From a virus: a stretch of DNA of 44,480 bases. Below are positions 136 to 15,978 of this stretch, piece by piece. Under the pieces are notes generated by a model, which was not told where the DNA came from, searched no databases, and worked only from the letters and a program-made list of their open reading frames with translations. The position numbers were made by a program, and so were the translations under genes. Numbering within the stretch: position 1 is the first letter of the stretch; each line of letters opens with the position of its first letter. The stretch covers positions 1-44,480 of IMG/VR virus record IMGVR_UViG_3300009151_004681; one strand, 5' to 3'.

Positions 136-1161
136 TATTTCTTTCTTGCATCCACCACACATATTGTTACATGCGATCAATCTACCGTCACCATATGTAG
201 GTATATCCCAAGTCTTCTCTACATTATTAAACCATGCTATACATTCTTCCAATGTATGCTCTAATGCATTGTTGTTTAATATTAATGGACGTAGTTGAGT
301 GTTAACCGCATTCATGTAGTTGTGTGATCCGTGTCCGAATGTTTTAGGTGCAAACCCTAAATAACAGCAAGGATATACTTCACCTACGCTGGTAATATAC
401 ACACTCTTGCTTTTGGCTGCTTTGCAAATTATTGGGACTTTTATTTCTATAGGGTAGCTGCCAATGTTGGTTACAGCAGTGGGTTCGGCTAATTGATCAA
501 ATATAATATTAAAATCAACATTGCTCGGTTTTCCCATTACATATACTAGATTCTTGTCTTTATCGTATATAGGTCCCTGATTACGACCGTGATCGATTAA
601 TTGAAACTCTTTAAATCCCATTTCTGTTGAGATGATTTGTGCTTGATCCTGCTGGTGCCTATTGTGATCAAAATCGATCATTTTCCATATAGCATGCCCG
701 CCTGCACTAATAAACGCTTCTGCATTACGTATCACTGTGCTATACAATGTGTTGCGTCTATAGATACTGTGCGTATCTGCCAAGCCGTCTATACAGAAGG
801 ATACTTCTATACCGAGAGCACCTAGCTTTTGCCAAAACATACGATCTCTGGCGCCACCATTTGTGCTGACAGAAATATTACTAAATCTAGGCATGTGTTG
901 TTTAAAGTATTCAACAATTTCTAATGCATCTGGATTCATTACGATATCACCAAAATTACCATTGATCAATATTTTTCTAAGTTGGCTTAGAAATGCAGGA
1001 GAAAATATATGTTTTGCCTCAACCAAGGTCATTGCGTGTTCTTCATACCCGTCATTGTGTGGGTATCCGCATAAGTTACGCGGGCATTTGGGGCAGGCAG
1101 CATTGCACTCACTAGATATTTCTAGGTGTACTTCTTTTATGTCTTCTACTGCATACATCAT
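103..1161 (-). CDS. Radical SAM protein with C-terminal SPASM-like region
   Basis: Radical SAM enzymes bind a [4Fe-4S] cluster through CX3CX2C and cleave S-adenosylmethionine to start radical chemistry. Here the motif CNAACPKC lies at residues 19-26, very near the N-terminus. A LINGNFGD stretch takes the place of the usual GGEP motif. The C-terminal third carries a SPASM-like set of cysteines: one in PIICKAAK, a CC pair in GEVYPCCYLG, one in LEECIAW and three in CNNMCGGCKK, which would bind auxiliary clusters. SPASM proteins usually modify peptides or proteins. I chose the double ATG at 1161, which has AGGA about 10 bases upstream and leaves a 16-base gap after the PBP7-like gene. A TTG at 1197 would add 12 residues and overlap that gene. 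It differs from the seven other radical SAM proteins in the window, whose extra cysteines are N-terminal. Confidence 0.85.
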   Translation of the reverse strand: MMYAVEDIKEVHLEISSECNAACPKCPRNLCGYPHNDGYEEHAMTLVEAKHIFSPAFLSQLRKILINGNFGDIVMNPDALEIVEYFKQHMPRFSNISVSTNGGARDRMFWQKLGALGIEVSFCIDGLADTHSIYRRNTLYSTVIRNAEAFISAGGHAIWKMIDFDHNRHQQDQAQIISTEMGFKEFQLIDHGRNQGPIYDKDKNLVYVMGKPSNVDFNIIFDQLAEPTAVTNIGSYPIEIKVPIICKAAKSKSVYITSVGEVYPCCYLGFAPKTFGHGSHNYMNAVNTQLRPLILNNNALEHTLEECIAWFNNVEKTWDIPTYGDGRLIACNNMCGGCKKEILLPIKPSSNF

Positions 1162-1177
1162 ACGGAGTAAATCCTGT

Positions 1178-1951
1178 TCAGTTAATATCGCGATCAAGAA
1201 TATGATTAAACATTATATTCTCTACTTGTGCAAGTCGTTGTGTCTTGTTTGCTTCACCTAAAATAACTATAACATATTGTTGTTTCTTGTTTTGCACAAG
1301 TAACGCCACACACCATCCGGCAGGATTAGTAAATCCAGTCTTGCTAATTAGAATATTATCAAACTCTATTAACACTGGTCGATTGGTATTGTTTATATCT
1401 ATGCTCCGAATCTTCTTTCCATAATGAGCATCTATTAATGATTGTTTTTTTGTGCTTGTAATTGTTATTAACTCGTATTTGGCGACTTCCTTTAACAATA
1501 TTCCAATCTCACCAGCTGTGGATATGTTTGCACTACTTAACCCACTGGGGTCATTAAATCGAGTCTGTGTCATGCCCAATGCAGTTGCTTTGGTATTCAT
1601 TGCTTTTATAAATGCTTTTCGACCACCAGGATAGTTTGCAGCCAATGTTTCTGCTGCGGCATTATCGGATCGTATCAACATAGCACTAAATAAATCTTCT
1701 CGACTATAGTGAGTAAGTGGCAATCGACTCTTTGTCACACGAGATAGTTTCAACTGTTGACCCATACTGGGGTTTTGACCGATAGCTATTATTGCTGTCA
1801 TTAGCTTAGTCAGACTTGCAATAGGGCGAGCGCTATTTACATCGTTACCAATTATTATATTATCTGTAGTTTCATTATAAACCCAAATGCTGGGTTTCTT
1901 AGCTGCATGGGCTGATATTGAAAAGAACAACAAGATAATAAGAAATTTCAT
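1178..1951 (-). CDS. D-Ala-D-Ala endopeptidase/carboxypeptidase, PBP7-like (peptidase S11)
   Basis: A serine peptidase of the penicillin-binding-protein S11 family, which cuts peptidoglycan stem peptides or cross-links. All three catalytic motifs are present: SLTK (Ser46, Lys49), SDN (95-97) and KTG (204-206). Residues 1-16 form a signal peptide (MKFLIILLFFSISAHA), so the enzyme should act in the periplasm. At 257 residues it is the catalytic domain only, as in PBP7, without the C-terminal beta domain of PBP5-type enzymes. It starts 1 base after the stop of the carbamoyltransferase gene, so the two are probably co-transcribed. A secreted PBP-type enzyme in a phage could help lysis, remodel the wall, or interfere with beta-lactam-like effectors; the sequence does not say which. 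Confidence 0.9.
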   Translation of the reverse strand: MKFLIILLFFSISAHAAKKPSIWVYNETTDNIIIGNDVNSARPIASLTKLMTAIIAIGQNPSMGQQLKLSRVTKSRLPLTHYSREDLFSAMLIRSDNAAAETLAANYPGGRKAFIKAMNTKATALGMTQTRFNDPSGLSSANISTAGEIGILLKEVAKYELITITSTKKQSLIDAHYGKKIRSIDINNTNRPVLIEFDNILISKTGFTNPAGWCVALLVQNKKQQYVIVILGEANKTQRLAQVENIMFNHILDRDIN

Positions 1952-1952
1952 T

Positions 1953-2882
1953 TTAACTTGGCCAAGCTATTCGTGTATCAGCTAATAACAATGCTGCACC
2001 AATCGCACTAGAACTATCACCAGGTACAGGTAATCCCCATACATTATCCCACAGTGGTAATATACGTTGTCGAGCTTTGCTATTCATTGCACATCCGCCC
2101 ATGTATACCAAGTTGCGCTCGCCGGTTAGTTCTAGTGCTTTATGCATTACCCAGATTACTTGCTCCTCAAATACTCGTTGTACCGCAGTGGCGATGTCGT
2201 AACGATCATAATATGATAAGATTAAATGAGGCCAATTATAAACACCACGATGTAAATTATATCTAGCTTGCATTGGAGATTTGAAATAATCGGCTACAGT
2301 TTCATAATATCTAGTATATGAACCGTGATCGCTATCAAGTTGTAATAAATGTTCTTCACCCAATGGTTTATATCCTATTAGTTTAGTAAATGCAGAATAG
2401 AATAATCCAAGACTAGTTGGGTAACTAACACTCCATAATTTTGTAAGCGTCTTACCGGTGCCTTTCCATATTGAAGCTGATTCCCATTCACCTATAGCAT
2501 CCAATACTACAATAGCTGCACTGTCAAATGTTGATGTATAGAATCCGGCTGCTGCATGAGTCTTATGATGAGAAAAATATTTTATTGGTATCGATGGTAT
2601 AGGCAATTTCTTCAAGTATACGCTAGGAAGTACTTGACTATCAAATGCATCGGCATATTGTCCGGAATATAATTGACGAAACTTTTTAATCAATGGGCGT
2701 TCATACCACGCTATCTGATCTGGTTTACCATGAGCAAGAACATCAGATATCAACGGCTTACATAATAGTTCATCGCCGGAATAAGTATAGTTTCGTGACT
2801 GTGCCCAAAATGCTAATTTATCATCCTTAATCACTGCGATACTTGCATCGTGATTAAGAGCTGTAATACCCCAGGTAATCAT
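1953..2882 (-). CDS. Carbamoyltransferase N-terminal (Kae1-like) domain, stand-alone
   Basis: Matches the first domain of the NodU/CmcH/TobZ O-carbamoyltransferase family, an ASKHA/Kae1-like fold. Visible motifs are NHDAS (10-14), the metal-binding HHKTH (105-109), VVLDAIGE (125-132), GYKPLGEEHLL (170-180), GGCAMN (262-267) and PGDSSSAIGAAL (287-298). Known family members are about 550-600 residues, with a second YrdC-like domain that makes carbamoyl-adenylate; this protein ends after 309 residues without it. No frameshifted remnant follows, because the PBP7-like gene starts 1 base later. It may therefore use carbamoyl-adenylate from elsewhere, or do a different nucleotide-dependent transfer. 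Its ATG overlaps the TGA of the upstream 33-residue ORF (ATGA), so its translation is probably coupled to it. Confidence 0.8.
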   Translation of the reverse strand: MITWGITALNHDASIAVIKDDKLAFWAQSRNYTYSGDELLCKPLISDVLAHGKPDQIAWYERPLIKKFRQLYSGQYADAFDSQVLPSVYLKKLPIPSIPIKYFSHHKTHAAAGFYTSTFDSAAIVVLDAIGEWESASIWKGTGKTLTKLWSVSYPTSLGLFYSAFTKLIGYKPLGEEHLLQLDSDHGSYTRYYETVADYFKSPMQARYNLHRGVYNWPHLILSYYDRYDIATAVQRVFEEQVIWVMHKALELTGERNLVYMGGCAMNSKARQRILPLWDNVWGLPVPGDSSSAIGAALLLADTRIAWPS

Positions 2883-2980
2883 TTATAAATGAATGGATCT
2901 CTACGGCGCAACTCTTTAAGTTTACGCCGATAGCGTATCTCAAGACGTATGCGCTGATATAACGTTTTTATCCAGTTCAT
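2879..2980 (-). CDS. Small very basic peptide (33 residues), coupled at both ends
   Basis: The peptide begins MNWIKTLYQR and ends RRRDPFIYK. It has 12 Lys/Arg and only 3 acidic residues, five aromatics, and no cysteine. Three signs say it is real: its ATG overlaps the TGA of the upstream gene as ATGA; its own TGA overlaps the ATG of the carbamoyltransferase gene as ATGA; and GGAG lies about 9 bases before its start. It exactly fills the space between those genes. The middle would form an amphipathic basic helix. Function unknown. Its place next to eight radical SAM genes makes it a candidate peptide substrate, but it could equally be a small regulatory or nucleic-acid-binding protein. Confidence 0.8.
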   Translation of the reverse strand: MNWIKTLYQRIRLEIRYRRKLKELRRRDPFIYK

Positions 2981-4104
2981 CCCATTCTCCTTTGATAATC
3001 ATATCCCGGTTTTAGCTTGGCAATCTGTTGTTGCTTATAGTCACTGTCGGTCCAACAGTAATCGAATGTTTGATTGATACCATTTACTTCTATCTTATAT
3101 ATATCTAGATGTGCAGACAGCATATTCCATATAGCTTGAGAATCAGTAGTTCCAAAACTCTGCTGCAATTGCACCTGCCCTAAGGGTAAATAACCAAGAC
3201 TTAGTGAAACATCCGTTATGTCTTGCCCATTGTTTTGTAGCCAGTTTCGAAAGTGATCTTGTTCTTTATCATGCCACGGACATACACTATTATACACAAT
3301 ATCATTACCCCATTCAACATCAAATTCTCCAGAATAATATTTAAGATGTGTAATTGCATCACATACCGTATTGGTTAAAACAGGTGCATGTTCGTCTCGA
3401 AATACTTCAAACAAGGTTTTCCCTATCTGAGTCCAATGCATGTACACACCGCCCAATACACGATCATATCCATTGGATTTAAACAGTTGTCTATGTTCAT
3501 CGGTAAGTGGATATCTATCTGCCGTAATCCAAGTTGTAATTTGACTTGGACGTACCCAATTTGGAGCCGTTACTGCTTTTCTTCTGCTTAGAATAAGAGA
3601 CTCTAATTCATGACATATATTGTTTAATTGACGTATAGCATATTTAACCTCATAGTCGGCGTGTTTATACCAGTTACTAATATTTGATACTGTTCCTTGC
3701 AGAATTTCAAAATGATTATGTAATTCGTTAAACAATATATGATTGGGCCCATTTTCGGCCCAATCAGTTGCTAATACTGTATCCGGAGTGATAACTAAAT
3801 CGATATGGTATCCATCTAAGCCATTATTGACTGTGGTAATGTGGTTTGTAATCTCATTGCATAGATATTCCACAGTGCGGGCAGTTTGTGGAAATCCAAG
3901 GAAACAGTAATTTTTCTCTAATGGTTTAGCTGACTTTAATAATTTTTCAAGAGCCGATATCCAGTCTTGCCCAAGTTCGTGATCAAATGATTGTATAACA
4001 TAGTCAAGTTGATCGGCATGATTCAAGGGATTGCGTAGAACTATACGTACATTAGATTCCACGCCACCACCTAGAAACATCTGATCTGGCTGCAAGTATA
4101 TCAT
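2977..4104 (-). CDS. Conserved-looking phage protein of unknown function (375 residues)
   Basis: Soluble, with no signal peptide or membrane segment and no catalytic motif I can name. It is rich in Trp, His and Asn, with stretches such as FNELHNHFEILQGTV, HWTQIGKTLFEVFRDEHAP and LKYYSGEFDVEWG that look like conserved packed motifs, not drift. It resembles proteins I associate with marine phage genomes, but I cannot place it in a named family. It overlaps the upstream radical SAM gene by 53 bases if the first ATG (4104) is used. A second ATG at 4080 would reduce this to 29 bases; neither has a strong ribosome binding site. Its position inside the radical SAM run suggests an accessory role there, for example substrate binding; this is inference. 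Confidence 0.75.
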   Translation of the reverse strand: MIYLQPDQMFLGGGVESNVRIVLRNPLNHADQLDYVIQSFDHELGQDWISALEKLLKSAKPLEKNYCFLGFPQTARTVEYLCNEITNHITTVNNGLDGYHIDLVITPDTVLATDWAENGPNHILFNELHNHFEILQGTVSNISNWYKHADYEVKYAIRQLNNICHELESLILSRRKAVTAPNWVRPSQITTWITADRYPLTDEHRQLFKSNGYDRVLGGVYMHWTQIGKTLFEVFRDEHAPVLTNTVCDAITHLKYYSGEFDVEWGNDIVYNSVCPWHDKEQDHFRNWLQNNGQDITDVSLSLGYLPLGQVQLQQSFGTTDSQAIWNMLSAHLDIYKIEVNGINQTFDYCWTDSDYKQQQIAKLKPGYDYQRRMG

Positions 4105-5350
4105 TCATTGTGATGTTATGTGTACGTATACTTTCTAATTTTAATATACGTGTCTTACCTCTACGTAGTCCATCTGCATAAGCATCTGGCCATTGTTCCT
4201 CAAAAGTAGGACGTTGTTTAAGTTGTAGTAATACATCTGCCAATGCTCTAGAGCATTGTGGGACAAGTTCATCAATCCATGCATTTAATATGTTACGTGG
4301 TAATGCAAGTGGACTCATAACAATATCCGGAGTAAAACTGAATATAACTTTAGCCAATATATCAACACCAAGTTGTTTAGCTAACTTGTCGATCGCAATA
4401 ACTTCGAACATACCTGGCAAGGTCAGTGTAAAATCTATACGTAATTGTCTTGGATGTTTTGCATATGGTAGCCCAAGTTTAAAATTATCTAACCATTCGT
4501 TATAATTTAATCCGGTGCGTATGTATTCGCCAATGGCACCGGTACCATCAAGACTGGCACATATTTGCCAATCACGTAAATGTGCAAGTATGTCTTTATA
4601 TAAATTAGTACCGCCATAACCAACTTTACTAAGATTAGTATTGTACCGAGCATAGACTTTTTTTCCATCGCCAAGCTCAATTATACGTTTCATATATCTC
4701 CAGTGTTGTTCATACATTAGTGGTTCGCCGCCCACCCAGTAAATCTCTTCCACTCTATGTTCTTCAACTGCTTGAGAAAATTCGGCCTCTATCTGTGTGT
4801 CTTGGAATTGTGTTATTTGCTTTTTAACCGTAGGACGCATCCAATTATTTTTTGGATCAGACCAATTGACCATATTATTCTGACGTTGTTCTGTTTCCCA
4901 ACTACTAGAAAGCATGTCACCACACATACGGCATTTGAAGTTACAGAGATTGCTAAATCTATAATCCCAACTAACTGGTAACATTGTGGTTGTGCCATCA
5001 GCATCGGTTGTGCTGGATATTTTATCATATTTGTGTTTAAACAATTGCCAAAAATATGTTCGATATACATCAGTATTCAATAGCTTGTCGTTGCATACTT
5101 CACATTCTGGCAATGTTTCTCCAGCTATCATTCTTTGTCTAACCGATCGCATATGATCACTATTCCAATGTTCTTCTAAGGTGATTGGAATATATTTGCC
5201 GGAACCGGCAGCGGTGTCGATATATTGTTTAAAATTTTGGGCCGGTTCGCGACTTGCACAGCACATCCTACGTTCTCCTTGTGGAGAAAGATATGTATGT
5301 ACCCAGGGTGCTAGGCAAAGAGATTTGGGTTTTTCTAAAATATTAGTCAT
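4052..5350 (-). CDS. Radical SAM protein with N-terminal twitch-like region (array member B)
   Basis: The core motif CNFKCRMC lies at residues 136-143, followed by the SAM-binding VGGEP and a later ASLDG strand motif. Before the core is a cysteine-rich region with Cys12 (in LCLAPWVHTY), the pair Cys30-Cys31 after a Gly-containing turn, and Cys83/Cys86 in CEVC. This layout is that of proteins annotated as twitch-domain radical SAM: a shortened SPASM-like auxiliary cluster site, here N-terminal and not C-terminal. Start at the ATG at 5350, 2 bases after the stop of the next upstream radical SAM gene; no clear Shine-Dalgarno sequence, so reinitiation is likely. Last of seven consecutive radical SAM genes. 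The substrate cannot be read from the sequence. Confidence 0.88.
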   Translation of the reverse strand: MTNILEKPKSLCLAPWVHTYLSPQGERRMCCASREPAQNFKQYIDTAAGSGKYIPITLEEHWNSDHMRSVRQRMIAGETLPECEVCNDKLLNTDVYRTYFWQLFKHKYDKISSTTDADGTTTMLPVSWDYRFSNLCNFKCRMCGDMLSSSWETEQRQNNMVNWSDPKNNWMRPTVKKQITQFQDTQIEAEFSQAVEEHRVEEIYWVGGEPLMYEQHWRYMKRIIELGDGKKVYARYNTNLSKVGYGGTNLYKDILAHLRDWQICASLDGTGAIGEYIRTGLNYNEWLDNFKLGLPYAKHPRQLRIDFTLTLPGMFEVIAIDKLAKQLGVDILAKVIFSFTPDIVMSPLALPRNILNAWIDELVPQCSRALADVLLQLKQRPTFEEQWPDAYADGLRRGKTRILKLESIRTHNITMNDILAARSDVSRWWRGI

Positions 5351-5352
5351 AA

Positions 5353-6471
5353 TTATTCAAAGCACACAGAATGATTTTGTTTACGTGTTTGGTCTAATAA
5401 GGAATTAAATAAACGACTACGTTCCCATTGTACGGTATCAAATGGTTGTGATTCTAATGTGTTGATTAGTTTTGTAAATAATTGTTTATTAATATCAGAT
5501 AGTTCCATACCTAGATATGTTTGTATACGAGAAATTGCTAGGCTTCGTAAATTTGTCGGTAAATTCCATGGTATCATATGCACAGGCTGTGACACCGGTT
5601 GAAAAATGTGATCTATTCCATTACGCTTATCAATATTTTGATTTCTTACATTGTTAATTAAAGAAATCAATGGCGCCAACTGTAGGATGTTAAGATTGGA
5701 TATTGTTGTGTTTATTAGCAAACTGTGACTAGTGTGCGCAAGCAAATATAAATTTTTTAATACCAATGGCCAGTTTGTCCCATCCCTGACTAGTTCAGCT
5801 ATGTGTTCAGTTCCATCAAGACTAATGGTCCAATGTATTGATGGTAATTTTTTCATAGCATCTATCCAAAAATCATCCTTGAAACTGCCATTAGTTGTAA
5901 TTTGAATATCAATATTATGTAACTTGTGATCAATAATGTACTGTATAATCTGTTTAACCTCGGGCATACATGTTGGTTCACCTCCTGCTAATTTAAGCAT
6001 TTTAAGCGTAGGTAAGATATCTATAACATATTCTAAAGTTTGTTTATCTATATACTGTATCTTACTATGTCCGATGCTGCGATAAAATGATTGTAATTCA
6101 TGATTATGTTGTGCTTCAATATCAATTCCACTACTAAAATCTGGCTCACAACTTCTGCATCGAAAATTACACAAATTACTAAGACGTAGATCTAAGTATA
6201 TGGGTGCTTGTTGTTTTTCTGTTTCTCCCCATTCTGACAATGCTTCAAGACGTGTACTTATTCCAGTTATTTTTTCCTTATGTTGACAATGCCAACATCC
6301 ACTTAGTGGCCGGTTGTTTTTAAGTGCCAGATTTATATTAACAAGTTCATCACTATCCCAAAATTCGTTAATAGGCAATGGTGATATTTTTCCGTACGAA
6401 CAACACGGTTTTATTCCGTCAGGTTGTAAAAAAATATGCACATTTGGCAACGGACAACTACGATTTGTCAT
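5353..6471 (-). CDS. Radical SAM protein with N-terminal twitch-like region (array member C)
   Basis: Numbering from the ATG at 6471: the core motif CNFRCRSC is at residues 101-108, with LAGGEP as the SAM-binding loop and TISLDG further on. The N-terminal auxiliary cysteines are Cys6, the pair Cys23-Cys24 (IKPCC) and Cys59/Cys62 (CWHC), the same pattern as its neighbours but in the shortest N-terminal region of the set. I prefer ATG 6471, overlapping the upstream stop by 14 bases, over a TTG at 6477. The gene is somewhat more AT-rich than the average in this run. The C-terminal half is poorly conserved relative to the other members, consistent with a different substrate. Confidence 0.87.
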   Translation of the reverse strand: MTNRSCPLPNVHIFLQPDGIKPCCSYGKISPLPINEFWDSDELVNINLALKNNRPLSGCWHCQHKEKITGISTRLEALSEWGETEKQQAPIYLDLRLSNLCNFRCRSCEPDFSSGIDIEAQHNHELQSFYRSIGHSKIQYIDKQTLEYVIDILPTLKMLKLAGGEPTCMPEVKQIIQYIIDHKLHNIDIQITTNGSFKDDFWIDAMKKLPSIHWTISLDGTEHIAELVRDGTNWPLVLKNLYLLAHTSHSLLINTTISNLNILQLAPLISLINNVRNQNIDKRNGIDHIFQPVSQPVHMIPWNLPTNLRSLAISRIQTYLGMELSDINKQLFTKLINTLESQPFDTVQWERSRLFNSLLDQTRKQNHSVCFE

Positions 6472-7672
6472 ATTCAATTAACTTAGCAAACTCTGGCTCA
6501 ACAATAGATAGATTTTGCGACCTTTTACGATCAAGATCAGCTATCCTCATACGCATGATTGCCCCATCTGTACTTGCCCCTTTATTCATAAATTTTGCAA
6601 TAAATTTAAATTCTGCCAATATATTTTCTAAGACATCGGCATTGAGTAATCTATCAGTTATTACACTCTTGGCTGTATCTGGCAATGACGCTACACTAAA
6701 ATACCAAGCATCATGCATGATATTCCAATATATGTAATCAAATTGTTGCCCAACAATCCATTGTGCTACAGTTTTGAGATAATACACATTAAACACATTT
6801 ACTGTACAGCATACCTGTAATCGTATATTGTTATATCGGGTGCGTAGTTCTTTAAATTTCTGTATGTTATCACATACTTCTGTCCATACTGAATTACTAC
6901 GTTGATACTCGAATCTTTCTGCAACATCATCAATGCTAAATGCGATCTCCACTAATTTAAAATGCTGCCAAATATTTTCAGCATTGCTAGGCCATTGTGT
7001 GCCATTTGTATTATAGTGGATTTCAATATTACCTGCCAGTCCTTGATCAACAAGCCGTTGCAGCATATCAAAATGCTCACGGATCATGAATGGCTCGCCA
7101 CCAGTGAATTCAATATATCGTATTTGTTCAGATACTTGTGCTATCTCCTGCCAGAAGCTAGGATTTTCACGTGGCCACGCACCAGCACGTAACATGGTAA
7201 AGTGATGGTTATTTTTTGAATCTTCTCCAACTGGCAAATTTTTTAATTCTTCAACTGCAAATGTGCTTGAACTCCAGCTACCACATATACGGCATTTTAA
7301 ATTACAGATATTTCCCAGCTTGAGATCTAAAAACATTAATGGTTTTGCATCAGCAGTCCAACTTTGTTCCGGCAGCATGTGTTTTAGTCTGTCTAATGTA
7401 TGCATACGTTTGCTTGTACGACCACCACGTTCTTCATTCCAACATTTCCTGCAAGTTTTTGGCTGTTTCCCATCAAGAAATTCTTGACGAAGATCCCGCA
7501 TATGACTGCTGTCTTGAATATTTTGAAACCCTGCTTGATGCAAATCAAATTTATTACCGGCATCATCTACTATCTCATCATCAGCAAGACAGCATGGTCT
7601 TACTGTGCCAATGGGGCTGGTCTCAAGGCTGACCCAGGGTAATACGCAGAACTTATCGTGTGGAATATTCAT
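6458..7672 (-). CDS. Radical SAM protein with N-terminal twitch-like region (array member D)
   Basis: From the ATG at 7672, the first residues MNIPHDKFCVLPWVS contain the first auxiliary cysteine (Cys9). The CC pair is at 27-28 (VRPCC) and CRKC at 74-77. The core CNLKCRIC follows at 123-130, then FTGGEPF. The ATG at 7672 overlaps the upstream TGA as ATGA; a longer open frame of 15 residues upstream reads poorly and lies inside the previous gene, so I rejected it. The region around IAFSIDD replaces the usual SLDG of the other members, a small change near the substrate side of the barrel. Translation is probably coupled to the upstream radical SAM gene. Confidence 0.88.
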   Translation of the reverse strand: MNIPHDKFCVLPWVSLETSPIGTVRPCCLADDEIVDDAGNKFDLHQAGFQNIQDSSHMRDLRQEFLDGKQPKTCRKCWNEERGGRTSKRMHTLDRLKHMLPEQSWTADAKPLMFLDLKLGNICNLKCRICGSWSSSTFAVEELKNLPVGEDSKNNHHFTMLRAGAWPRENPSFWQEIAQVSEQIRYIEFTGGEPFMIREHFDMLQRLVDQGLAGNIEIHYNTNGTQWPSNAENIWQHFKLVEIAFSIDDVAERFEYQRSNSVWTEVCDNIQKFKELRTRYNNIRLQVCCTVNVFNVYYLKTVAQWIVGQQFDYIYWNIMHDAWYFSVASLPDTAKSVITDRLLNADVLENILAEFKFIAKFMNKGASTDGAIMRMRIADLDRKRSQNLSIVEPEFAKLIEYDKS

Positions 7673-8955
7673 ATTAATGCAGTCAATTCTGGAATAACAT
7701 CTAGTATATTTTCGCATCGTATATAATCAAGCTCACTAGTTTTAGCCCAGAATGTATCGATTAATTTTGTATTATCAGTTTTATTCATAAAGGTAATAGC
7801 ACTTTCAAATCCAACAGTTGCTCTATGTAATGTGTCCAACGGGCGCAGCCATTCTAAATGTTTTTCAAATTTTTGTTGTATCTGTTCTTTGTATTCGTTA
7901 GATGCGATATCAATTCTGAAATGCATTGGATCTTGCAAGATATTTACATTTAAATCTTGTGGAGTTATCAATCCTTTCTCGACCCAGGCTTTATGGAAAT
8001 CGGGTAAGTGCAATGCATTCATGATGCTAAGTGTGGGTGAAATATAAAAGTCTACTTTAGGACAGATTTCTATCATATTTTTACGATTTTCTTCTACAAC
8101 TTTCCACACAGTACCTTTACGAATATATTCTGCACGTGGACCCATGGCATCTAAACTGGCACCAACAGCAACACTTTCAAATTTTTTCCAATAATCAAAT
8201 ACACTACGATTTTTTAGTTTCACTTGTGTAAAATTTGTATTGTATATGAGTCTTACATCAAACCGTTTACGACGTTCTAATTCTTCGAGGATAAGATAGT
8301 GTTCTTCCATCATTAGTGGTTCACCACCGGCAAAATATATTTGTTCGACATGATCGATATGTTCTATTAGCTGTTCCCACATATCAGTTTCATGTTGCCC
8401 GGCATAGTTTAATGCCGTGTTTTTAATCGCCCATTCGGGACCGGCAAGTTTGACTTGATCTTGATACCATTGGCTTGAAAATATAGATCCACAGCTACGG
8501 CAACGGAGATTGCATAAGTTGCTAAATCGTATATCCCAATATGTCATGGCAAATTCATCCACATGTCCTGTGTCTGTTGTTTGATCGATACGGTCAATTT
8601 GATGTCCGTGATGCTTGTTAGCACTTTTACGTCCACTGAAGAATCCAGATTGTTCCTGCTCGTAGCAACGTCCACATGCCACATTGGTATTTTCGGACAA
8701 CATATCAACCCTGAGTTTCTTTTGTGGCTCGCTGTTCCATATTTCTTTAAGTGTATTAGTTTTACAATTACCAACGGGATAGTTCATTTCTGAGTGACAG
8801 CATGGATACGCTTCACCAGTTGGATATGCATGTAAATGGATCCAAGGATAGATGCAAAATGTTTTTGATTCGGAGAGCAAAAACTGTTTCTTTTTGTCAA
8901 GATCGGCTAATTGGATCTTAACTGGATCGGTGCTGCTATAATTATATGCTGTCAT
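7669..8955 (-). CDS. Radical SAM protein with N-terminal twitch-like region (array member E)
   Basis: The core motif CNLRCRSC is at residues 148-155, with FAGGEP and a GASLDAMG strand. Auxiliary cysteines: Cys34 (FCIYPWIH), Cys52-Cys53 (AYPCCHSE), an extra Cys64 and Cys94/Cys97 (CGRC). It has a 30-residue N-terminal extension before the first cysteine that its neighbours D, C and B lack. The start ATG (8955) overlaps the end of member F by 14 bases. Closest in layout to members B and H (shared RAEYIRKG-type motif, seen as GEYIRTG and LEYIRSG). Reaction and substrate unknown. Confidence 0.88.
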   Translation of the reverse strand: MTAYNYSSTDPVKIQLADLDKKKQFLLSESKTFCIYPWIHLHAYPTGEAYPCCHSEMNYPVGNCKTNTLKEIWNSEPQKKLRVDMLSENTNVACGRCYEQEQSGFFSGRKSANKHHGHQIDRIDQTTDTGHVDEFAMTYWDIRFSNLCNLRCRSCGSIFSSQWYQDQVKLAGPEWAIKNTALNYAGQHETDMWEQLIEHIDHVEQIYFAGGEPLMMEEHYLILEELERRKRFDVRLIYNTNFTQVKLKNRSVFDYWKKFESVAVGASLDAMGPRAEYIRKGTVWKVVEENRKNMIEICPKVDFYISPTLSIMNALHLPDFHKAWVEKGLITPQDLNVNILQDPMHFRIDIASNEYKEQIQQKFEKHLEWLRPLDTLHRATVGFESAITFMNKTDNTKLIDTFWAKTSELDYIRCENILDVIPELTALI

Positions 8956-10279
8956 ACCATTCTAATAGGTTGGGAAATGTTTGGGCAAAGTTTTTGCCAC
9001 GGCGTTGATCGTATTGTGTATAAAATTGTTTGAAATCATTGTGTAGCTTGGGCATGTCAAATGCATCACTATGTGGGGTTTCGACTACGTCAAGATAATC
9101 AATTAATCGTTGGACCTGATTGATTTCGTGTTCGTGTAACAATTTATTTGATGCATTGATATTTAACCACGCTGTGAGCTTGTGTTGATATTGTGTACGA
9201 ATTTCTACTGGCAATACCAATGGGCTTTGGAAGCTGGGGAATCGCAGTATATTAAGTGTGAAATTTGGAAAATCTTTACCATATAAGTGTTTTAGCTCAA
9301 GCATGTGATCTAAAAAGTTTGGTAAACTGTCGAGACATAGCGCATTGATCGTACACATTACATGCACAGCACGAACAGTGCCACTTGTGATAAGTGTTCT
9401 CATATTCATAAACCATTGTGCGTAATCAAGACCATCTCTAATGTATTCTGCTTGTGCCGAAACTGATTCGCAGCTGGTATAAACTTCAACATGTGGCAAT
9501 GGACGTATTGCTTCGATAAACTCTTGTAGTTTGTCTTGCTTGAGTCCAAGATTACTGTTAATTGCAAGATGTGTGGTGCTCTTACCTTGGTTAAGTTTAA
9601 ACCATTCTATTAGTTTCCAAGTTTCGGCTGACATCAATGGTTCACCACCGGTGATGCGTAGCTCTTTAAGAGTACGGTGAAGATCAGTTTCCCACCAACG
9701 AAAGAATGCATCCACATATGGATTAGCTTCGCCAAATTTGTATAGTTGTGCGCTGTCATGTGGATGTGTGAAATGATTACGCCCATCACTTATTAGTCCG
9801 GTGTATGCTCCGTTGGTTTTAATATCCTTTACCCATGTGCTTGAAAATGCAGGATTGCAATAGCTACAGGCAAATTGACATGTGCGATCAAATGCAATTT
9901 CTAAAGTTTGAAGATCTACATCAGCAGCAGGATCCATATCAAATGCACGTTGTAGATCTTCTTTGCTGTAAATTTTACTTTTGTACACACGATCGCTGAT
10001 GTTATTACGACCGGTGTCCTCTATTTTCCAACAGTATTCACAGCCTGCAGGACGTTCTCCACGTTGCATCATTGCACGATCTAATTTCTTCTCTTTGGTA
10101 TTATGCAATGCTTTTGGGTTTACTTTAATATCTTCCACATTTACTTTATGTGCAGGTGGATGATGACAACTGGTACTCATACCTGAGCCTAACCATATGG
10201 TTGCATTATAACTTTTAGCAGCACACCAACTGGCGCTTTTGCTATCAAGTAATTGTTGACGAAATTCGAGATCGGTCAT
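8942..10279 (-). CDS. Radical SAM protein, CHHPP subgroup (array member F)
   Basis: The core motif CQFACSYC is at residues 134-141, followed by ITGGEPL. The N-terminal region differs from members B-E: after Cys19 comes a single cysteine in SCHHPPAHK (38-45) in place of the CC pair, then CEYC at 80-83. This could make a different auxiliary cluster ligand set with histidine. The C-terminus ends in a block with YDQRRGKNF and TFPNLLEWY that is shared with member G only. F and G are thus a paired subgroup, probably an old duplication, as they now differ at most positions. The gene is 1 base from its upstream neighbour G (stop 10281, start 10279). Confidence 0.87.
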   Translation of the reverse strand: MTDLEFRQQLLDSKSASWCAAKSYNATIWLGSGMSTSCHHPPAHKVNVEDIKVNPKALHNTKEKKLDRAMMQRGERPAGCEYCWKIEDTGRNNISDRVYKSKIYSKEDLQRAFDMDPAADVDLQTLEIAFDRTCQFACSYCNPAFSSTWVKDIKTNGAYTGLISDGRNHFTHPHDSAQLYKFGEANPYVDAFFRWWETDLHRTLKELRITGGEPLMSAETWKLIEWFKLNQGKSTTHLAINSNLGLKQDKLQEFIEAIRPLPHVEVYTSCESVSAQAEYIRDGLDYAQWFMNMRTLITSGTVRAVHVMCTINALCLDSLPNFLDHMLELKHLYGKDFPNFTLNILRFPSFQSPLVLPVEIRTQYQHKLTAWLNINASNKLLHEHEINQVQRLIDYLDVVETPHSDAFDMPKLHNDFKQFYTQYDQRRGKNFAQTFPNLLEWYDSI

Positions 10280-10280
10280 A

Positions 10281-11702
10281 TTATATATTCTTAGCGTGAT
10301 ATTGACATTGCTGCCACCATTCGCTCATTTCAGGAAAGGTTGTTAAGAAATCCGTGCCGCGGCGTTTATCGTGCTCATTAAAGAATTTCCAAAAATCAGC
10401 TTTGTTCTTATTAAGATATGCTGGATCTAATTTCTGTCCATCACGCATCCAGGCTATGTCGCGGTCAAGACGTGCCAATTCATAATCTTTAAATCCTTTA
10501 AAAGGAGCGTCTTCTGTTTCTATTTGGCGAATCATCCATGCCCATAATAGTTCTAACTGATCTGCATAGCTCTCAGGTAACAACTGTAGACTTTGCCATG
10601 CAGGCTGACGTAATACCGGAGTATCAAACCAAACACGTTGATAGGTATTGCTGTATAGATGTCGTAAGCCCAGTATAGCTGCAAATAAACTACCAAGCCC
10701 TGTTACAGATAGATTATTCATTGTTACGATAAATGTAATACTGTTACGCCCGGGAATCTCTGTTAAAAATTGATTAACTCTATCCCATAACAGATTAAAA
10801 TCTAATCCATGCCGTATGTATTCTGCTTGTGCGCCGAATGAATCCAAGCTTACATATTGCATAAAATGTTCAATATTGTCTTTTTTGCATAAGCGTTTGA
10901 CATAGCTAAGATATTTTTTCCAGCTTTTTTCATCGACGGAAAAGTTACTTGTAACATTTAAATGTAGATCCGGCTTTGGATTAGCTAACACATAATCAAA
11001 CACACGATATGTATTTTTGTCCAGCAATGGTTCGCCGCCGGTCATACGGAAATGTTTTAGCTGTGGATATAGTTCGGGCCACCATGCCCAGAATGCATCC
11101 ACATAGGGATTAGGTTGTGAGTGTGGTATTGGCTTACGACTTCCTGTGAAATGTTCCGGAGCATTATGTGGTATTGAGGTTAGGTAGGCCCCGTGGCGAT
11201 CTATTTCCTGCTGCCAGGTGCTGCTGAATTGTGGGCTGCAATAGCTACATTTAAGATTACACGCATTGTTGAAATTAACTTCTACATAACTAGGAATAAC
11301 ATCTTCATCCCCTGTTGAATTTTTAATAGCATCAAAATCTGCAGCAGCCCATGGCTCTCCTGAACGATAGTGTCTATCACTAAGTTTGCCATTATCTTCC
11401 ATATTCCAACAGTAGCTACATTCTGCTGGACGTTGTTGTTTTAACATAATCTTACGTTGATCTTTTTTGTATGCGGTATTATGCAACGCCGATGGATTGG
11501 ATCTAATCGCAGATGGATCTATGGAATGCAGTGGAGGATGATAACATGAGTTGTTTAGTCCGGTTGGTAAATGTAGACTAACCTGTTTCCATTTAGCTAG
11601 ACAAAGTGCAGGACCGAGATTGGTTTTCATAAACTCTGCATCATCTAAAAACTTTGATTTAAAGTTGGATGTAATTTCGTCGCCTTTATTACTCATATTC
11701 AT
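10281..11702 (-). CDS. Radical SAM protein, CHHPP subgroup (array member G)
   Basis: The core motif CNLKCSYC is at residues 148-155, then MTGGEPL. N-terminal auxiliary residues: Cys34, SCYHPPLHS (52-60) and CSYC (95-98), matching member F. Also shared with F are the LHNT segment after the HPP motif, the NPYVDAF stretch before a Trp-rich segment (WAWWPEL here, FRWWETD in F), AEYIRHGLD, and the C-terminal HDKRRGTDF ... TFPEMSEWW. With 473 residues it is the longest of the eight. Start at ATG 11702 (a second ATG lies at 11696), overlapping member H by 14 bases. F and G may act as a pair on one substrate; this is inference. Confidence 0.87.
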   Translation of the reverse strand: MNMSNKGDEITSNFKSKFLDDAEFMKTNLGPALCLAKWKQVSLHLPTGLNNSCYHPPLHSIDPSAIRSNPSALHNTAYKKDQRKIMLKQQRPAECSYCWNMEDNGKLSDRHYRSGEPWAAADFDAIKNSTGDEDVIPSYVEVNFNNACNLKCSYCSPQFSSTWQQEIDRHGAYLTSIPHNAPEHFTGSRKPIPHSQPNPYVDAFWAWWPELYPQLKHFRMTGGEPLLDKNTYRVFDYVLANPKPDLHLNVTSNFSVDEKSWKKYLSYVKRLCKKDNIEHFMQYVSLDSFGAQAEYIRHGLDFNLLWDRVNQFLTEIPGRNSITFIVTMNNLSVTGLGSLFAAILGLRHLYSNTYQRVWFDTPVLRQPAWQSLQLLPESYADQLELLWAWMIRQIETEDAPFKGFKDYELARLDRDIAWMRDGQKLDPAYLNKNKADFWKFFNEHDKRRGTDFLTTFPEMSEWWQQCQYHAKNI

Positions 11703-12789
11703 GATTTTTTAAAATATTATCAACAGCGAAAGATTTAAACGGTAATAAATCAAATAATTTTTCGCCTCGTAAATTATCCAATAGTAATATGTGTGAGATA
11801 GTTTGCCGAAATAGAGTTTGATTAATATTATTGTTAATTAAATTTTTAATATGCAGTATTACATTATTGTTTATTTTATATTCAGATTCAAGTTTAGCAA
11901 TTTTATCTAATGCTAATGATTTTAATGAATCAGGCATTACATCTAATGCTAAGTAGTCTGGGCCTGTTAGTATAATTAAGTTAATAGGAATATTATTTAA
12001 TAATGCATACTTGTATAATTCGTCAATAAACCAAATATTTAAAATACTCAAAACTGGACTAAGATTAATATTAATATTTGATTTTTTTGAAAACGCTATT
12101 AGTTGTTCTAAATTTAATTTTATTTTCTCCCATCTGGCTCCGGATCTAATATACTCAAGCGGTACACCAACTGCATCAATACTACATTGGATTGTAACAT
12201 TTTTAAATTTTTTCCAAATATCAATAATATTCGTATCTTTATATTTTATTGTGGTTAAATTAGTATTATACATTAATGATATATCAGCAGATTTTCCACT
12301 ATCAATTAATTCATTAAGCAACACCCAATGTTCGCCGTTAATTAATGGTTCGCCACCAGTAAAATACATCCAATGTAACGAGTCGGTGATCAGTATATTT
12401 TTATAATCAATTATATCTTGATGTTGTACCACTGCCAACTTATCAAGTTCTTCCGCCCATTTACTGCTAAAATGTGGACCACAATATCTACATTTTAAAT
12501 TACAAAGATTAGTATTTCTAATATCAACAAATTGTAATCCCACAGCTGATGTTACTTTGCTTTTAAACATATCTCTATAACTAGGTAGTTTGTGATATTC
12601 TGCTACCGAACATTTATTACACGGATGTTCGGGAGGACAGTCTTGTGTTTTTAAATCTACAAATCTATCGGAATTTACTAATTCGGATATAGGTTTTAAA
12701 TATTTTGCGTCGATTAAACCACACGGACCAATTTTCCCATTAGAAAAAATAGTAACTCCGTGGTCAATTGCCGGGCAACGCCAAGTCAT
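11689..12789 (-). CDS. Radical SAM protein with N-terminal twitch-like region (array member H), strongly AT-rich
   Basis: Numbering from the ATG at 12789: Cys5 in MTWRCPAIDH, Cys23 (IGPCG, a single cysteine where others have CC), Cys51, Cys57 and Cys60 (CNKC), then the core CNLKCRYC at 96-103 and FTGGEPL. The ATG at 12789 begins 7 bases after the GT-like gene; a longer frame to 12834 lies inside that gene and is not preferred. The base composition differs from its neighbours: sample lines near 11900 and 12250 are about 22-27% GC, against 40-48% in members F and G. The protein is correspondingly rich in Ile, Asn and Lys. This suggests later arrival from a low-GC genome. It is the first of the array to be transcribed. 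Confidence 0.85.
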   Translation of the reverse strand: MTWRCPAIDHGVTIFSNGKIGPCGLIDAKYLKPISELVNSDRFVDLKTQDCPPEHPCNKCSVAEYHKLPSYRDMFKSKVTSAVGLQFVDIRNTNLCNLKCRYCGPHFSSKWAEELDKLAVVQHQDIIDYKNILITDSLHWMYFTGGEPLINGEHWVLLNELIDSGKSADISLMYNTNLTTIKYKDTNIIDIWKKFKNVTIQCSIDAVGVPLEYIRSGARWEKIKLNLEQLIAFSKKSNININLSPVLSILNIWFIDELYKYALLNNIPINLIILTGPDYLALDVMPDSLKSLALDKIAKLESEYKINNNVILHIKNLINNNINQTLFRQTISHILLLDNLRGEKLFDLLPFKSFAVDNILKNHEYE

Positions 12790-12796
12790 AATTATT

Positions 12797-13723
12797 TTAC
12801 CAGCCTTCCTGCGTTCTAATAACATCAATTTCACGTGTCATAACACCAACATTATGCCAATTGCTGCGATAATGTTGTTTAAAGAATTTACTACCAGTGT
12901 CGTCTAACATGGTAATCGGCAAACCAAGTTGCGTAATCAAATCTTCGGACACACGACCTGCTAATAAATCCGGATCTGAATCCTGCACTGTGCCCCAGAG
13001 CTCGGTTAATGCATCAAAGTCTTGAACCCTTGTATGATCCCAATTAGTAAGCATGGTCATGTAAGTACCCATCCTGGCGCCGGCTATGCTCCAACTGCCA
13101 TACTCTACATCACGACCAACGTTGTGCCATATAGTAAGATGATCAAGATTACGCTGATGTACTTGAGTTTGAAATTCTGTCAATGTTGGCTTTGCTCCCT
13201 TGTTCAAACACATCTTAACTCCTTCTCTAAATCCTGCACGCCAAGCATGATAGGATGATTGGTTAGGATATGTTGTGCTATAACAATCATGCATGGGCCA
13301 ATATAATGGATCAAAGCAAAACTCTACTTGAGTTTCGGCTCTGCCATCTGTGGCTTCGTGTGTTTGCATACGGTTAACAAAATCTTTTGTCCAGCTGCTT
13401 ATTCCTCCATTGCCGTACATGAGTCCATTTACATGGTTACGAGCACGCCAACGATATACAGCCTGTTGCCATTCTACTGTGGGAAATGACAATGAAAAAT
13501 TGAAAAATTTTTGGTCAGGCATGTTGTCGCCATCAATTAGAATAAATCGATCAGTTGCGCTTGCTGCTGCCGCTGCTTTATGTGCTGCATCGCTACCTTT
13601 AATTCCATCAATTCGTTTGGCCCATGGGATCATGTTTCGAATTTTAATCCAGAATTCTTCTCGATTTGGTTCATCAAATGTAAGAAAAATTACATCAAGA
13701 TCAGCAATGTCAATTTGTGTCAT
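12797..13723 (-). CDS. Probable GT-A-type glycosyltransferase-like protein
   Basis: The N-terminal 70 residues look like a nucleotide-sugar-binding Rossmann half of GT-A enzymes: the strand DVIFLTFDEPN (10-20), a conserved Lys/Ala-rich helix (AHKAAAAASATDRF) and the strand ILIDGDN (61-67), whose DGD would be the metal-binding DxD motif. The remainder is Trp/His-rich and not recognised. No membrane segment. It overlaps the next upstream gene by 14 bases and sits directly before the radical SAM array. Donor and acceptor are unknown. The DxD reading rests on position and flanking strands only, so glycosyltransferase activity is likely but not certain. Confidence 0.6.
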   Translation of the reverse strand: MTQIDIADLDVIFLTFDEPNREEFWIKIRNMIPWAKRIDGIKGSDAAHKAAAAASATDRFILIDGDNMPDQKFFNFSLSFPTVEWQQAVYRWRARNHVNGLMYGNGGISSWTKDFVNRMQTHEATDGRAETQVEFCFDPLYWPMHDCYSTTYPNQSSYHAWRAGFREGVKMCLNKGAKPTLTEFQTQVHQRNLDHLTIWHNVGRDVEYGSWSIAGARMGTYMTMLTNWDHTRVQDFDALTELWGTVQDSDPDLLAGRVSEDLITQLGLPITMLDDTGSKFFKQHYRSNWHNVGVMTREIDVIRTQEGW

Positions 13724-14063
13724 AGTTCTTTAAACTCCACTGTGTATGTATCTGCATAGCATCCACTACCACACATATATCTTGAGGATCGCAACAGGTT
13801 CCCGGAGATATTGGTACTAGCTTTTTTGACTGTGAGTGAATATCGATTTTTACTAGTTGTCCGGCTATCACACGAACCATCATTGATGCGGTTACATAAG
13901 CTATTGGATCTACATCTATATACAATCCGGGGAGATTCTCCATAGTATAGAATAATGGCATACCTTGTGCATCATGATATAATCTTCGGAATATTATGGG
14001 TGGTTCGTATGGCGGCAAGTTATTAAATACTGCCCAAAAATTATCAATAGTTTCGTTGCTCAC
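13710..14063 (-). CDS. Small phage protein of unknown function (117 residues)
   Basis: I start it at a GTG at 14063, which overlaps the TGA of the glycosyltransferase gene as GTGA, the same coupling used repeatedly in this operon. The longer frame up to 14150 would overlap that gene by 91 bases. The protein begins VSNETIDNFWAVFNNL and has a compact hydrophobic core (LPGLYIDVDPIAYVTASMMV) and a cysteine-rich segment, GTCCDPQDICVVV. No family recognised and no signal peptide. Its place between two GT-like genes suggests a partner role, but nothing in the sequence proves it. Confidence 0.65.
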   Translation of the reverse strand: MSNETIDNFWAVFNNLPPYEPPIIFRRLYHDAQGMPLFYTMENLPGLYIDVDPIAYVTASMMVRVIAGQLVKIDIHSQSKKLVPISPGTCCDPQDICVVVDAMQIHTQWSLKNYDTN

Positions 14064-14848
14064 TGTATGCACCAATCTTTGATATGGTAATGTACCGCAC
14101 CCCATTGGGCTATGGTATTGATACGTAACCCTGGGTCGGTATGTTCCCACACAAGTTCTTGTGTCCAGTCTGATGTCCGAATTGGGATGATGTGTTTTTT
14201 CATATGTACCATGTTTGGTCCATAACCCGGCGGTAATGTAACTGTATCCGTGCCTAGAATTACTGCGGCTAATGCATACACAACATCAGTGGTAGGCTCT
14301 TGCTCAGCAAACTTTAATAACTTCTTAAATTGATCCCAGTTTTCGAATATCTTGCGTACCAACTCAAAGAATGCCTGAGCTGCATAACTTACCCGCCAAT
14401 ATGTAATACCGTTATATACATCCGGTAATTGATTTTCATCAAATACACGTCGATAGAATCTGTTGTGACTTGTTTGATCGTAAAAGTCCCGGCAGCCTTG
14501 ACTGATAACAATGTCACGATGTTCAAACAATGACCACCAATGATCTATTGGACTGGCGATGAACACGTCAGCTTCTAGTTTTATGGTTTGGCGAAACGGT
14601 GATGCTGCAAAGACTTGCCAATCATTTGATAGTTTCCAACTACTATCGGGATCTTGATCTCCGTACGGTAATTGTACCACATGATCAAATATTGGATCTA
14701 TTATAGATTGATTTGTCAACAAGCAAACATTTGCAGCAGGATGCCAGGCCTTTATGCTGTAAGCAAGTTGCTGCGCACAGGCTGTGTAATCATTGTTGGC
14801 TGTGTTGATAGCTGGGATTAGATATCCACGTTCACAAAGAATTGGCAA
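14060..14848 (-). CDS. Probable glycosyltransferase (GT-A fold, GT8-like)
   Basis: Resembles small GT-A glycosyltransferases. An N-terminal segment has the SIKAWHP and NVCLLTN strands, the motif KLEADVFIASP (90-100) holds an acidic EAD in the DxD position, and a later HMKKHIIP and AVHYHIKDW supply the His-rich C-terminal motif common in GT8-like enzymes. 262 residues, no membrane segment. The start is TTG at 14848: GGAGA sits about 6 bases upstream and no in-frame ATG follows at a sensible place, so this non-ATG start is well supported. It overlaps the next upstream gene by 17 bases. A likely partner of the second glycosyltransferase in building or decorating a glycan. Confidence 0.65.
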   Translation of the reverse strand: MPILCERGYLIPAINTANNDYTACAQQLAYSIKAWHPAANVCLLTNQSIIDPIFDHVVQLPYGDQDPDSSWKLSNDWQVFAASPFRQTIKLEADVFIASPIDHWWSLFEHRDIVISQGCRDFYDQTSHNRFYRRVFDENQLPDVYNGITYWRVSYAAQAFFELVRKIFENWDQFKKLLKFAEQEPTTDVVYALAAVILGTDTVTLPPGYGPNMVHMKKHIIPIRTSDWTQELVWEHTDPGLRINTIAQWGAVHYHIKDWCIQ

Positions 14849-15943: not shown

Positions 15944-15949
15944 GTGATA

Positions 15950-15978
15950 ATTATATAGGAAAATTAGGCAAAAGTAAA
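15950..15978 (-). promoter_or_regulatory. Candidate sigma70-type promoter for the accessory module
   Basis: On the minus strand, TTTACT (15973-15978) is followed after 17 bases by TATAAT (15950-15955). The -10 box is perfect and the -35 box matches TTGACA at four of six positions. The predicted start of transcription falls at or next to the ATG at 15943, so transcripts would be leaderless or nearly so. It lies immediately downstream of the terminator and shares bases with it, a sensible place for restarting transcription. Prediction from sequence only. Confidence 0.35.

Follow-up and report, generated by a model that had tools for sequence, protein, structure and literature searches.

The window analysed here, that is, the whole 44,480-base stretch of IMG/VR virus record IMGVR_UViG_3300009151_004681, has its main genes on the minus strand, and seven consecutive ones encode radical S-adenosylmethionine (radical SAM) enzymes with an N-terminal twitch domain (N-twitch). 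These genes, designated r1 to r7 in the order of transcription, are the subject of this study. A first-pass annotation made from the letters alone had recognized all seven, and they proved to be real: each is an open frame with the left end then assigned to it, carrying a CX3CX2C motif, a GGEP motif, and an N-terminal cysteine set. The first two motifs place all seven in the radical SAM superfamily. The array is composed as follows:

r1: 11689..12834, minus strand, N-twitch radical SAM, accessory, NF033640 score 245 bits
r2: 10281..11702, minus strand, N-twitch radical SAM, core, 315 bits
r3: 8942..10279, minus strand, N-twitch radical SAM, core, 302 bits
r4: 7669..8955, minus strand, N-twitch radical SAM, core, 397 bits; fused to r5 in four other loci
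r5: 6458..7717, minus strand, N-twitch radical SAM, core, 332 bits
r6: 5353..6477, minus strand, N-twitch radical SAM, accessory, 218 bits; the maximal frame begins with TTG
r7: 4052..5350, minus strand, N-twitch radical SAM, core, 285 bits

The model NF033640 (N_Twi_rSAM, NCBIfam) has a curated cut-off of 170 bits on the whole-protein score, which all seven proteins exceeded (218–397 bits) over nearly the full profile. Four N-terminal cysteines (C34, C52, C94, and C97 in r4 numbering) are invariant across the aligned proteins and make up a four-cysteine auxiliary-cluster domain of the SPASM/twitch type ahead of the radical SAM domain. PF13186 precedes PF04055 in r4, r5, and r7, and weakly in r1 (E 0.012), with no match at E 0.1 in r2, r3, and r6. 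The seven proteins are strongly diverged, with 19–29% identity to r4, in agreement with the initial view that this is no recent amplification. No block across the paralogues was conserved enough for a joint profile search, and relatives were sought by single-protein searches instead. The maximal open reading frames (ORFs), whose true starts may lie further downstream, overlap by 14, 14, 20, and 49 bases and are otherwise separated by gaps of 1 and 2 bases; the spacing first described (14-base overlaps or gaps of 1–2 bases) is right for the gaps and the two shorter overlaps and misses the other two.

The general domain and profile scans covered 28 window proteins, and the ORF lists took frames of at least 60 amino acids (aa). 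Among the matches listed (the best 25 for r1 and r6), no array gene exceeded the cut-off of a named NCBIfam equivalog for peptide-maturing SPASM enzymes, the best such score of the seven being 41 bits to the mycofactocin model (cut-off 265). No short Cys-rich precursor peptide gene was recognized next door among the listed ORFs, and r2 gave no usable match to PDB sequences.

Three further genes flank the array and recur with it:

GT308: 12797..13723, minus strand, predicted GT-A fold enzyme with an invariant DGD, cassette member
U375: 2977..4104, minus strand, conserved cassette protein with a weakly cyclophilin-like barrel and a helical insert
Cmt: 1953..2882, minus strand, carbamoyltransferase, N-terminal part only (PF02543 4e-30; phrog_1601)

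Viral contigs were searched with r4, r2, and r7, which yielded 8, 198, and 186 relatives, and the best 8, 80, and 80 were kept, on contigs of up to 374 kb from uncultured giant phages. Some contigs occur in both the r2 and the r7 set, near-duplicates are included, and the counts given here are of loci. In this gene-neighbourhood comparison, which the first-pass annotation had proposed, r2, r3, r4, r5 (or an r4-r5 fusion), r7, and U375 were all present in 120 of the 160 r2 and r7 loci, 90 of them distinct by r7. The order r2-r3-r4-r5-r7-U375 was kept in every one of the 120, with Cmt in 103 and GT308 in 102, and chance is therefore excluded. The remaining 40 loci were without at least one of these genes, many of them being cut short. 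Where the flank sufficed, the 56 r2 loci carried GT308, r3, and r4 in all cases, r5 in 55, r7 in 54, U375 in 51, Cmt in 37 (the flank not always reaching it), r1 in 5, and r6 in none. The corresponding 55 r7 loci all carried r2, r3, r4, U375, and Cmt, with r5 in 52, GT308 in 41, and r1 in 3; r5 is absent as a separate gene from three of them because it is fused to r4 there. Such r4-r5 fusions were found in four loci (L109, L172, L188, and L200). An r3-r2 fusion suggested by the open-frame data was rejected, since L010 has a TAG stop between the two genes and L016 has separate ORFs. For r6, no orthologue was present at 40% identity in either set.

The median pairwise identity was 65–72% for r2, r3, r4, r5, r7, GT308, and Cmt, and 57% for U375. 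The median ratios of nonsynonymous to synonymous substitution rates (dN/dS) were 0.05–0.12, with 0.066 for r2 (16 to 25 pairs per gene at 85–97% protein identity), and by this measure the cassette is under strong purifying selection. The CX3CX2C motif, GGEP, and the four twitch cysteines were intact in 681 of 681 full-length orthologues of r1–r5 and r7, a set that counts some contigs twice and admitted only complete ORFs of normal length, so that broken copies would drop out. Decay of most members in related phages, raised at the outset as a possible objection, is contradicted for the core.

On its upstream side, the cassette continues into the following genes:

F452: 17000..18358, minus strand, fibre or structural protein (phrog_14394, virion structural protein), in 72/76 r2 loci
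F324: 16015..16989, minus strand, fibre-like, Ser/Thr-rich by eye, candidate carrier of the modification, in 74/76 r2 loci
U116: 15635..15985, minus strand, small protein adjoining the fibre gene, in 75/76 r2 loci
GT287: 14832..15695, minus strand, glycosyltransferase-like, GT8-like by eye and related to GT262 (54–59 bits to the GT262 profile), in 76/76 r2 loci
GT262: 14060..14848, minus strand, glycosyltransferase-like, GT8-like by eye (phrog_1903, function not assigned there), in 76/76 r2 loci
U146: 13710..14150, minus strand, small phage protein, in 76/76 r2 loci

The order F452-F324-U116-GT287-GT262-U146-GT308-r2 was kept in all 76 r2 loci with 6.5 kb of upstream sequence. In the window as a whole, transcription runs from baseplate-type proteins through a 4421-aa virion protein, fibre-type genes, and two glycosyltransferase (GT)-like genes into the radical SAM array. 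The profile scans recognized T4-type baseplate proteins (gp53, weakly; a hub/lysozyme; gp25; and a gp6-type protein), which support the phage origin assumed from the beginning. The closest match of the gp6-like protein among the phage records searched is Sinorhizobium phage Phosso, at 34%. In the same records, tblastn gave no matches for GT308, U375, F324, or GT262, and megablast none for window bases 1–25000. The metagenome-assembled genome labels of the phage-like contigs disagree with each other; many related IMG records bear names that we take to be freshwater ones. The 4421-aa protein (window 20533–33798) is assigned to phrog_10938, a virion protein, and weakly matches a carbohydrate-binding module around residue 3862; it may be the counterpart of VrlC.

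The cassette varies in its optional genes. G001, the closest relative identified, aligns with the window as eight segments of 88–97% DNA identity. It has about 20 bases in place of window 5321–6478 and hence no r6 (a whole-gene difference), a 231-aa gene in the r1 slot, and, between r2 and r3, an additional gene of 394 aa; window 1–1175, the region of r8 (described below), had no DNA match in it. With neither gene in the nearest relative, r1 and r6 are classed from gene content as accessory. Slots, counted in r7 loci as gaps above 600 bases or extra radical SAM genes between neighbours, were occupied at r2/r3 in 50/68, GT308/r2 in 22/50, r5/r7 in 34/77, U375/Cmt in 27/77, r4/r5 in 13/75, r3/r4 in 8/74, and r7/U375 in 0/79 cases. 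Gaps above 400 bases, taken in both the r2 and the r7 loci, held 386 distinct ORFs of at least 150 aa, chance ORFs included. They comprise a family of 146 (GT-like by eye), 59 SGNH-like proteins with weak matches to GDSL/SGNH enzymes (E 7e-5), 35 radical SAM proteins, and 15 proteins resembling epimerases of nucleoside diphosphate (NDP)-sugars, the last in 13 loci and with one checked (E 5e-23 to PDB epimerases). The sulfotransferase, dioxygenase, and GT-like labels were assigned by eye, and neither the largest slot family nor one sulfotransferase-like insert had a usable PDB sequence match. This pattern may be read as a constant core accompanied by tailoring genes that can be swapped.

The descent of the paralogues was followed in a midpoint-rooted FastTree phylogeny of 76 proteins over 428 columns. 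Phage r2, r3, r4, r5, and r7 form five separate clades near bacterial relatives, which also speaks against recent amplification; each clade holds or adjoins a gene of contig L223, and one bacterial locus, L279, has a relative of each of the five core genes. From these relationships, the five subfamilies most likely predate the diversification of these phages and have stayed together. Support is low (down to 0) at several inner nodes, leaving the bacterial sister of r2 and the position of the L223 gene at the r4 clade unsure; r6 has no well-supported grouping with any orthogroup, and r1 stands beside the r4 clade. Among phage records, tblastn with r4 matched Vibrio phages K566/K567 (22%), a fragment from a single cell, and nothing else, and with r2 only K566/K567. 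In K566 (L220, record positions 140000–180000), five N-twitch-like radical SAM genes form a clade of their own. The jumbo phage Phosso (L221, 180000–216000) has several radical SAM genes after a giant virion protein; these barely match N-twitch profiles, and homologues of F201 and F452 are present.

Bacterial genomes were sampled from two phyla, which we infer to be Bdellovibrionota (the phylum of genome G018) and Pseudomonadota (that of G010), with different thresholds for each. In the former, 95 of 290 genomes had an NF033640 score above the cut-off; in the latter, 3 of 299 genomes had a match at E 1e-40. Some genomes of the former phylum had up to 54 first-look N_Twi_rSAM candidates, about six of which were scored per genome. 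GT308 was found in 17 of 280 and 1 of 299 genomes, respectively. All 17 also carry N-twitch genes at E 1e-92 or better, compared with the base rate of 95/290 over the cut-off, and an N-twitch gene lies within about 1.5 kb in 14 of 30 GT308 loci. The lone GT308 genome among the 299, G010, has the gene on contig L223 together with F452- and F324-like genes. A recurrent group in L264, L265, L266, and other loci consists of an N-twitch gene, a 370-aa radical SAM gene (rB370), and an r8-like gene (rB360), often with GT308. For one bacterial relative of r2 (L281:9823-12138), the maximal ORF is extended by 310 aa at the N-terminus, which may reflect a misplaced start and not an added domain.

Several bacterial relatives lie among sugar genes. 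An r2-like pair in L231 stands amid DegT, NTP_transferase, GDP_Man_Dehyd, Epimerase, and GT2 genes, and on a 2.66-Mb contig (L275), relatives of r7, r3, r3, and r2 are near NTP_transf_3, GT2, and GDSL lipase genes. Four N-twitch genes of L346 are part of an O-antigen-type cluster (RmlC, RmlD, WbsX, methyltransferases, ABC-2 permease), in which one N-twitch radical SAM shares a single reading frame with ABC_tran and Wzt_C, a Wzt fusion. A two-domain carbamoyltransferase accompanies an r4-like gene and GT2 in L348, and a carbamoyltransferase also occurs in the neighbourhood in L276. For a wider count, 157 bacterial neighbours were selected, of which 135 were scanned once duplicate loci and a number of ORFs of small or large size had been removed; these included 29 other radical SAM proteins, 6 GT2, and 3 Epimerase, against 2 radical SAM, at most 1 GT2, and 2 PMT_2 among 125 control proteins from the same genomes. 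Radical SAM genes clearly cluster in these neighbourhoods.

A modification-pathway layout with GT-like genes and a carbamoyltransferase, as first proposed, was upheld by the conserved order and by the predicted structure of GT308. The AlphaFold2 model of this protein (pLDDT 86) matched the PBCV-1 capsid glycosyltransferase 2p6w in Foldseek (E 2.8e-4) and GT-A enzymes with Z 9.0 and a root-mean-square deviation of 3.2 over 140 residues. Predicted structure and alignment together give GT308 a GT-A fold with a DxD motif; it had no Pfam family match, and its PDB sequence search gave nothing usable. The U375 model (pLDDT 86) reached Z 8–9 to cyclophilins with a best Foldseek E of 0.61, a likeness that may be near the level meaning only a common arrangement, and no PDB sequence match was found. 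The carbamoyltransferase, first described as a fragment, has 309 aa in the window, and 94 of 120 tabulated relatives have 480–519 aa (some shorter ones end with the locus). Its C-terminal part is also missing in G001, and the remaining part looks selected (dN/dS 0.10, window vs. G001). A full-length relative from L061 is matched by 140 phage records, none of which has radical SAM partners by tblastn with r4 and r2 except MH319727, where a radical SAM gene follows.

Two genes at the left end of the window lie outside the core:

r8: 103..1197, minus strand, radical SAM of another family with C-terminal SPASM-like cysteines, 270 bits to the bacterial profile rB360
D-Ala-D-Ala carboxypeptidase (S11): 1178..1951, minus strand, PF00768 3e-38, in 2/56 r2 loci and 2/55 r7 loci

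The former had been taken for an eighth, SPASM-type member. It does carry CX3CX2C and C-terminal cysteines, but its SPASM match (E 0.0026) is below the cut-off, GGEP is missing, and 19 bits to NF033640 make it a non-member; it belongs to the separate bacterial family whose profile, rB360, was built in this analysis. The proposed profile searches against twitch and SPASM families thus placed the seven array genes in one family and r8 in another. The D,D-carboxypeptidase gene lies one base from Cmt.

Radical SAM enzymes generate a 5'-deoxyadenosyl radical at the CX3CX2C cluster, which abstracts a hydrogen from the substrate, and an auxiliary cluster can accept an electron or bind the substrate; BtrN and MoaA have such auxiliary clusters and act on small molecules. 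From the family membership, cluster ligands, gene order, selection, descent, and some genomic sugar links observed above, we infer a substrate class, a chemistry, and a display site. On balance, we consider it probable that the genes are a phage-borne module for making and tailoring a glycan, in which radical SAM enzymes act on sugars beside the fibre genes. GT308, GT262, and GT287 would assemble a glycan, whose sugars the fixed five enzymes r2, r3, r4, r5, and r7 would alter by radical C-H chemistry, for example by epimerization, dehydrogenation, or deoxygenation, with one position or step per enzyme. In most relatives, a NodU/TobZ-type transferase would O-carbamoylate the glycan, and optional genes (r1, r6, other radical SAM, NDP-sugar epimerases, SGNH-like) would diversify the product. 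The finished glycan would decorate the adjacent F324, as the likeliest carrier, or else the host envelope. The presence of five different enzymes and the fusion of r4 to r5 in some loci suggest that a single substrate is altered in succession or position by position, and GT-A type transferases combined with an O-carbamoyltransferase make a sugar the simplest candidate. The earlier idea that each member has its own substrate or step fits the five core genes; r1 and r6 are optional. The first-pass annotation had also leaned toward peptide or protein substrates; the low peptide-maturase scores, some bacterial relatives in NDP-sugar and O-antigen loci, and the Wzt fusion speak otherwise, and suggest that a sugar coat rather than a peptide is tailored.

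A number of observations weigh against this glycan interpretation. With radical SAM genes dominating the bacterial neighbours, and given the control counts, the enrichment of sugar genes is modest, and the link comes mainly from particular loci. Of the 30 GT308 loci, 16 (some of them cut) have no N-twitch gene closer than about 1.5 kb. In L279, L342, L343, and L344, the genes around the core relatives look like housekeeping genes, and inspection by eye showed none for sugars; L229 has NADH dehydrogenase as a neighbour. The GT-A fold is also common to nucleotidyltransferases, so the fold of GT308 does not prove its activity. The C-terminal carbamoyltransferase domain PF16861, present in the L348 enzyme, gave no match at E 0.1 in the 309-aa window protein, and the cyclophilin likeness of the modelled U375 could hint at peptide binding. 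F324, moreover, was found in 1 of 280 bacterial genomes, with no match in the other 279. That one case, L325 of genome G180, comprises an r4-like gene, GT308, a radical SAM gene, a homologue of F324 (E 3e-31), U116, GT287, GT262, a 163-aa gene, a second GT308, and two more radical SAM genes on a contig with pheS/pheT- and trmD-like genes (by eye); F452 and F201 had no match in this 20-kb piece. Although a single case, this co-occurrence of F324 with the enzymes is the best hint as to the carrier of the product, and it would fit a direct change of the fibre polypeptide equally well.

The same glycan chemistry might have another destination, namely host surface polysaccharide that is remodelled for superinfection exclusion or receptor change. 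We consider this possible, though less likely than not. Relatives in an O-antigen-type cluster and the nearby D,D-carboxypeptidase gene would suit it, and the available text of PMC7029224 argues along these lines for the GT8 genes of pelagimyophages in a comparable genome region. However, the genes are fixed beside fibre genes and behind baseplate genes, the place expected for virion modification, and no polymerase, flippase, or initiating transferase was seen among the 28 proteins scanned of this record, which is a fragment. A bolder form of the glycan interpretation, which we regard as rather doubtful, would have jumbo phages share with Bdellovibrionota-type bacteria a dedicated pathway of five radical SAM enzymes, which rewrites a polysaccharide or fibre-linked glycan of the phage tail, with swappable radical SAM, epimerase, and further tailoring genes giving each phage its own glycan type in the manner of bacterial serotypes.

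It is unlikely, in our judgement, that the direct target of the radical SAM enzymes is a phage protein (F324, F452, or a small one such as U146) to which the GTs also attach sugars. The position of the cassette right after the fibre genes in all 76 loci, F324 and U116 beside it on a bacterial contig without F452 or F201, the cyclophilin-like look of U375, and the peptide substrates of many SPASM/twitch enzymes would all agree with such an activity. Against this stand the peptide-maturase scores far under the cut-offs, the lack of a recognizable precursor gene among the listed ORFs, a U146 alignment with 0 invariant columns (one row misaligned), and the bacterial relatives with NDP-sugar or O-antigen genes, including the Wzt fusion. 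In certain phages, DNA bases are hypermodified with the help of radical SAM, GT, and carbamoyltransferase genes, and the enzyme classes overlap with those found here, but the location among fibre genes, the sugar loci of some bacterial relatives, and the fact that no nucleotide-modifying enzyme was recognized among the 28 proteins scanned (most of the genome being outside the window) make this very improbable. A selfish or decaying paralogue array without joint function is barely credible: accessory r1, r6, and r8 come and go, whereas dN/dS of 0.05–0.12, intact cysteines in 681/681, and constant order in 120/120 contradict it for the five core genes.

To our knowledge, NF033640 has no assigned substrate, and its accession was not found in the open-licence literature searched. 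The family occurs in a third of the sampled genomes of one phylum (95/290) and in phage arrays, with no substrate found. The O-antigen and NDP-sugar links, the Wzt fusion, and the fixed five-gene set offer a testable pathway of radical C-H chemistry on surface glycans. If true, this would bring a further enzyme class into glycan tailoring and a concrete way for phages to diversify fibres or the host surface.

In the literature searched, neither shared descent with Bdellovibrionota-type genomes together with a glycan link, nor a connection of a radical SAM twitch domain with Bdellovibrio surface glycan, was found. The ordered set, the twitch family, the Cmt link, and relatives in O-antigen loci were likewise not found in the available text of the open-licence sources. 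Phages with many radical SAM genes are already known from the accessible parts of three reports, without this function (PMC5332604, PMC3322345, PMC7029224); the initial statement that no known phage function explains so many in a row is still fair as to function. TARA_ERS488813_N000010, a T4-like marine genome, has 12 radical SAM genes, which the text available assigns to iron-sulfur cluster metabolism (PMC5332604), and it resembles the window, by description, in having many such genes in one phage. The six radical SAM genes of the T4-related Campylobacter coli phage IBB_35, as far as its report could be consulted, are widely distributed in the genome (PMC3322345), unlike the single array of the window. 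Lake Baikal phages are, again by description, similar as lake viruses with radical SAM genes, which the accessible text ascribes to pyrroloquinoline quinone biosynthesis or SAM-cycle functions (PMC7678222), and the part of PMC10783043 at hand mentions only a radical SAM gene beside QueC.

The pelagimyophage host recognition cluster, according to the available sections of PMC7029224, is a variable region after the VrlC gene with fibre and GT8 genes, in which radical SAM cassettes were added between two genomes; the enzymes are not analysed there, whereas here they form a conserved ordered set, in a lineage with a gp6-like protein nearest that of Phosso. That cluster occupies the VrlC-gp14 interval; the present cassette follows the 4421-aa virion protein, and the window contains no gp14 gene. 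Among carbamoyltransferases, Cmt is homologous to the NodU/TobZ type and to the cyanophage "Nol-like" carbamoyltransferase (phrog_1601), and differs from the NodU/TobZ type in having no C-terminal part. The O-antigen ABC exporter subunit Wzt, fused to an N-twitch radical SAM in bacterial L346, provides a pathway context and not a phage parallel. Compared with the NF033640 family at large, the cassette is distinguished by having five subfamilies as a fixed set in one place.

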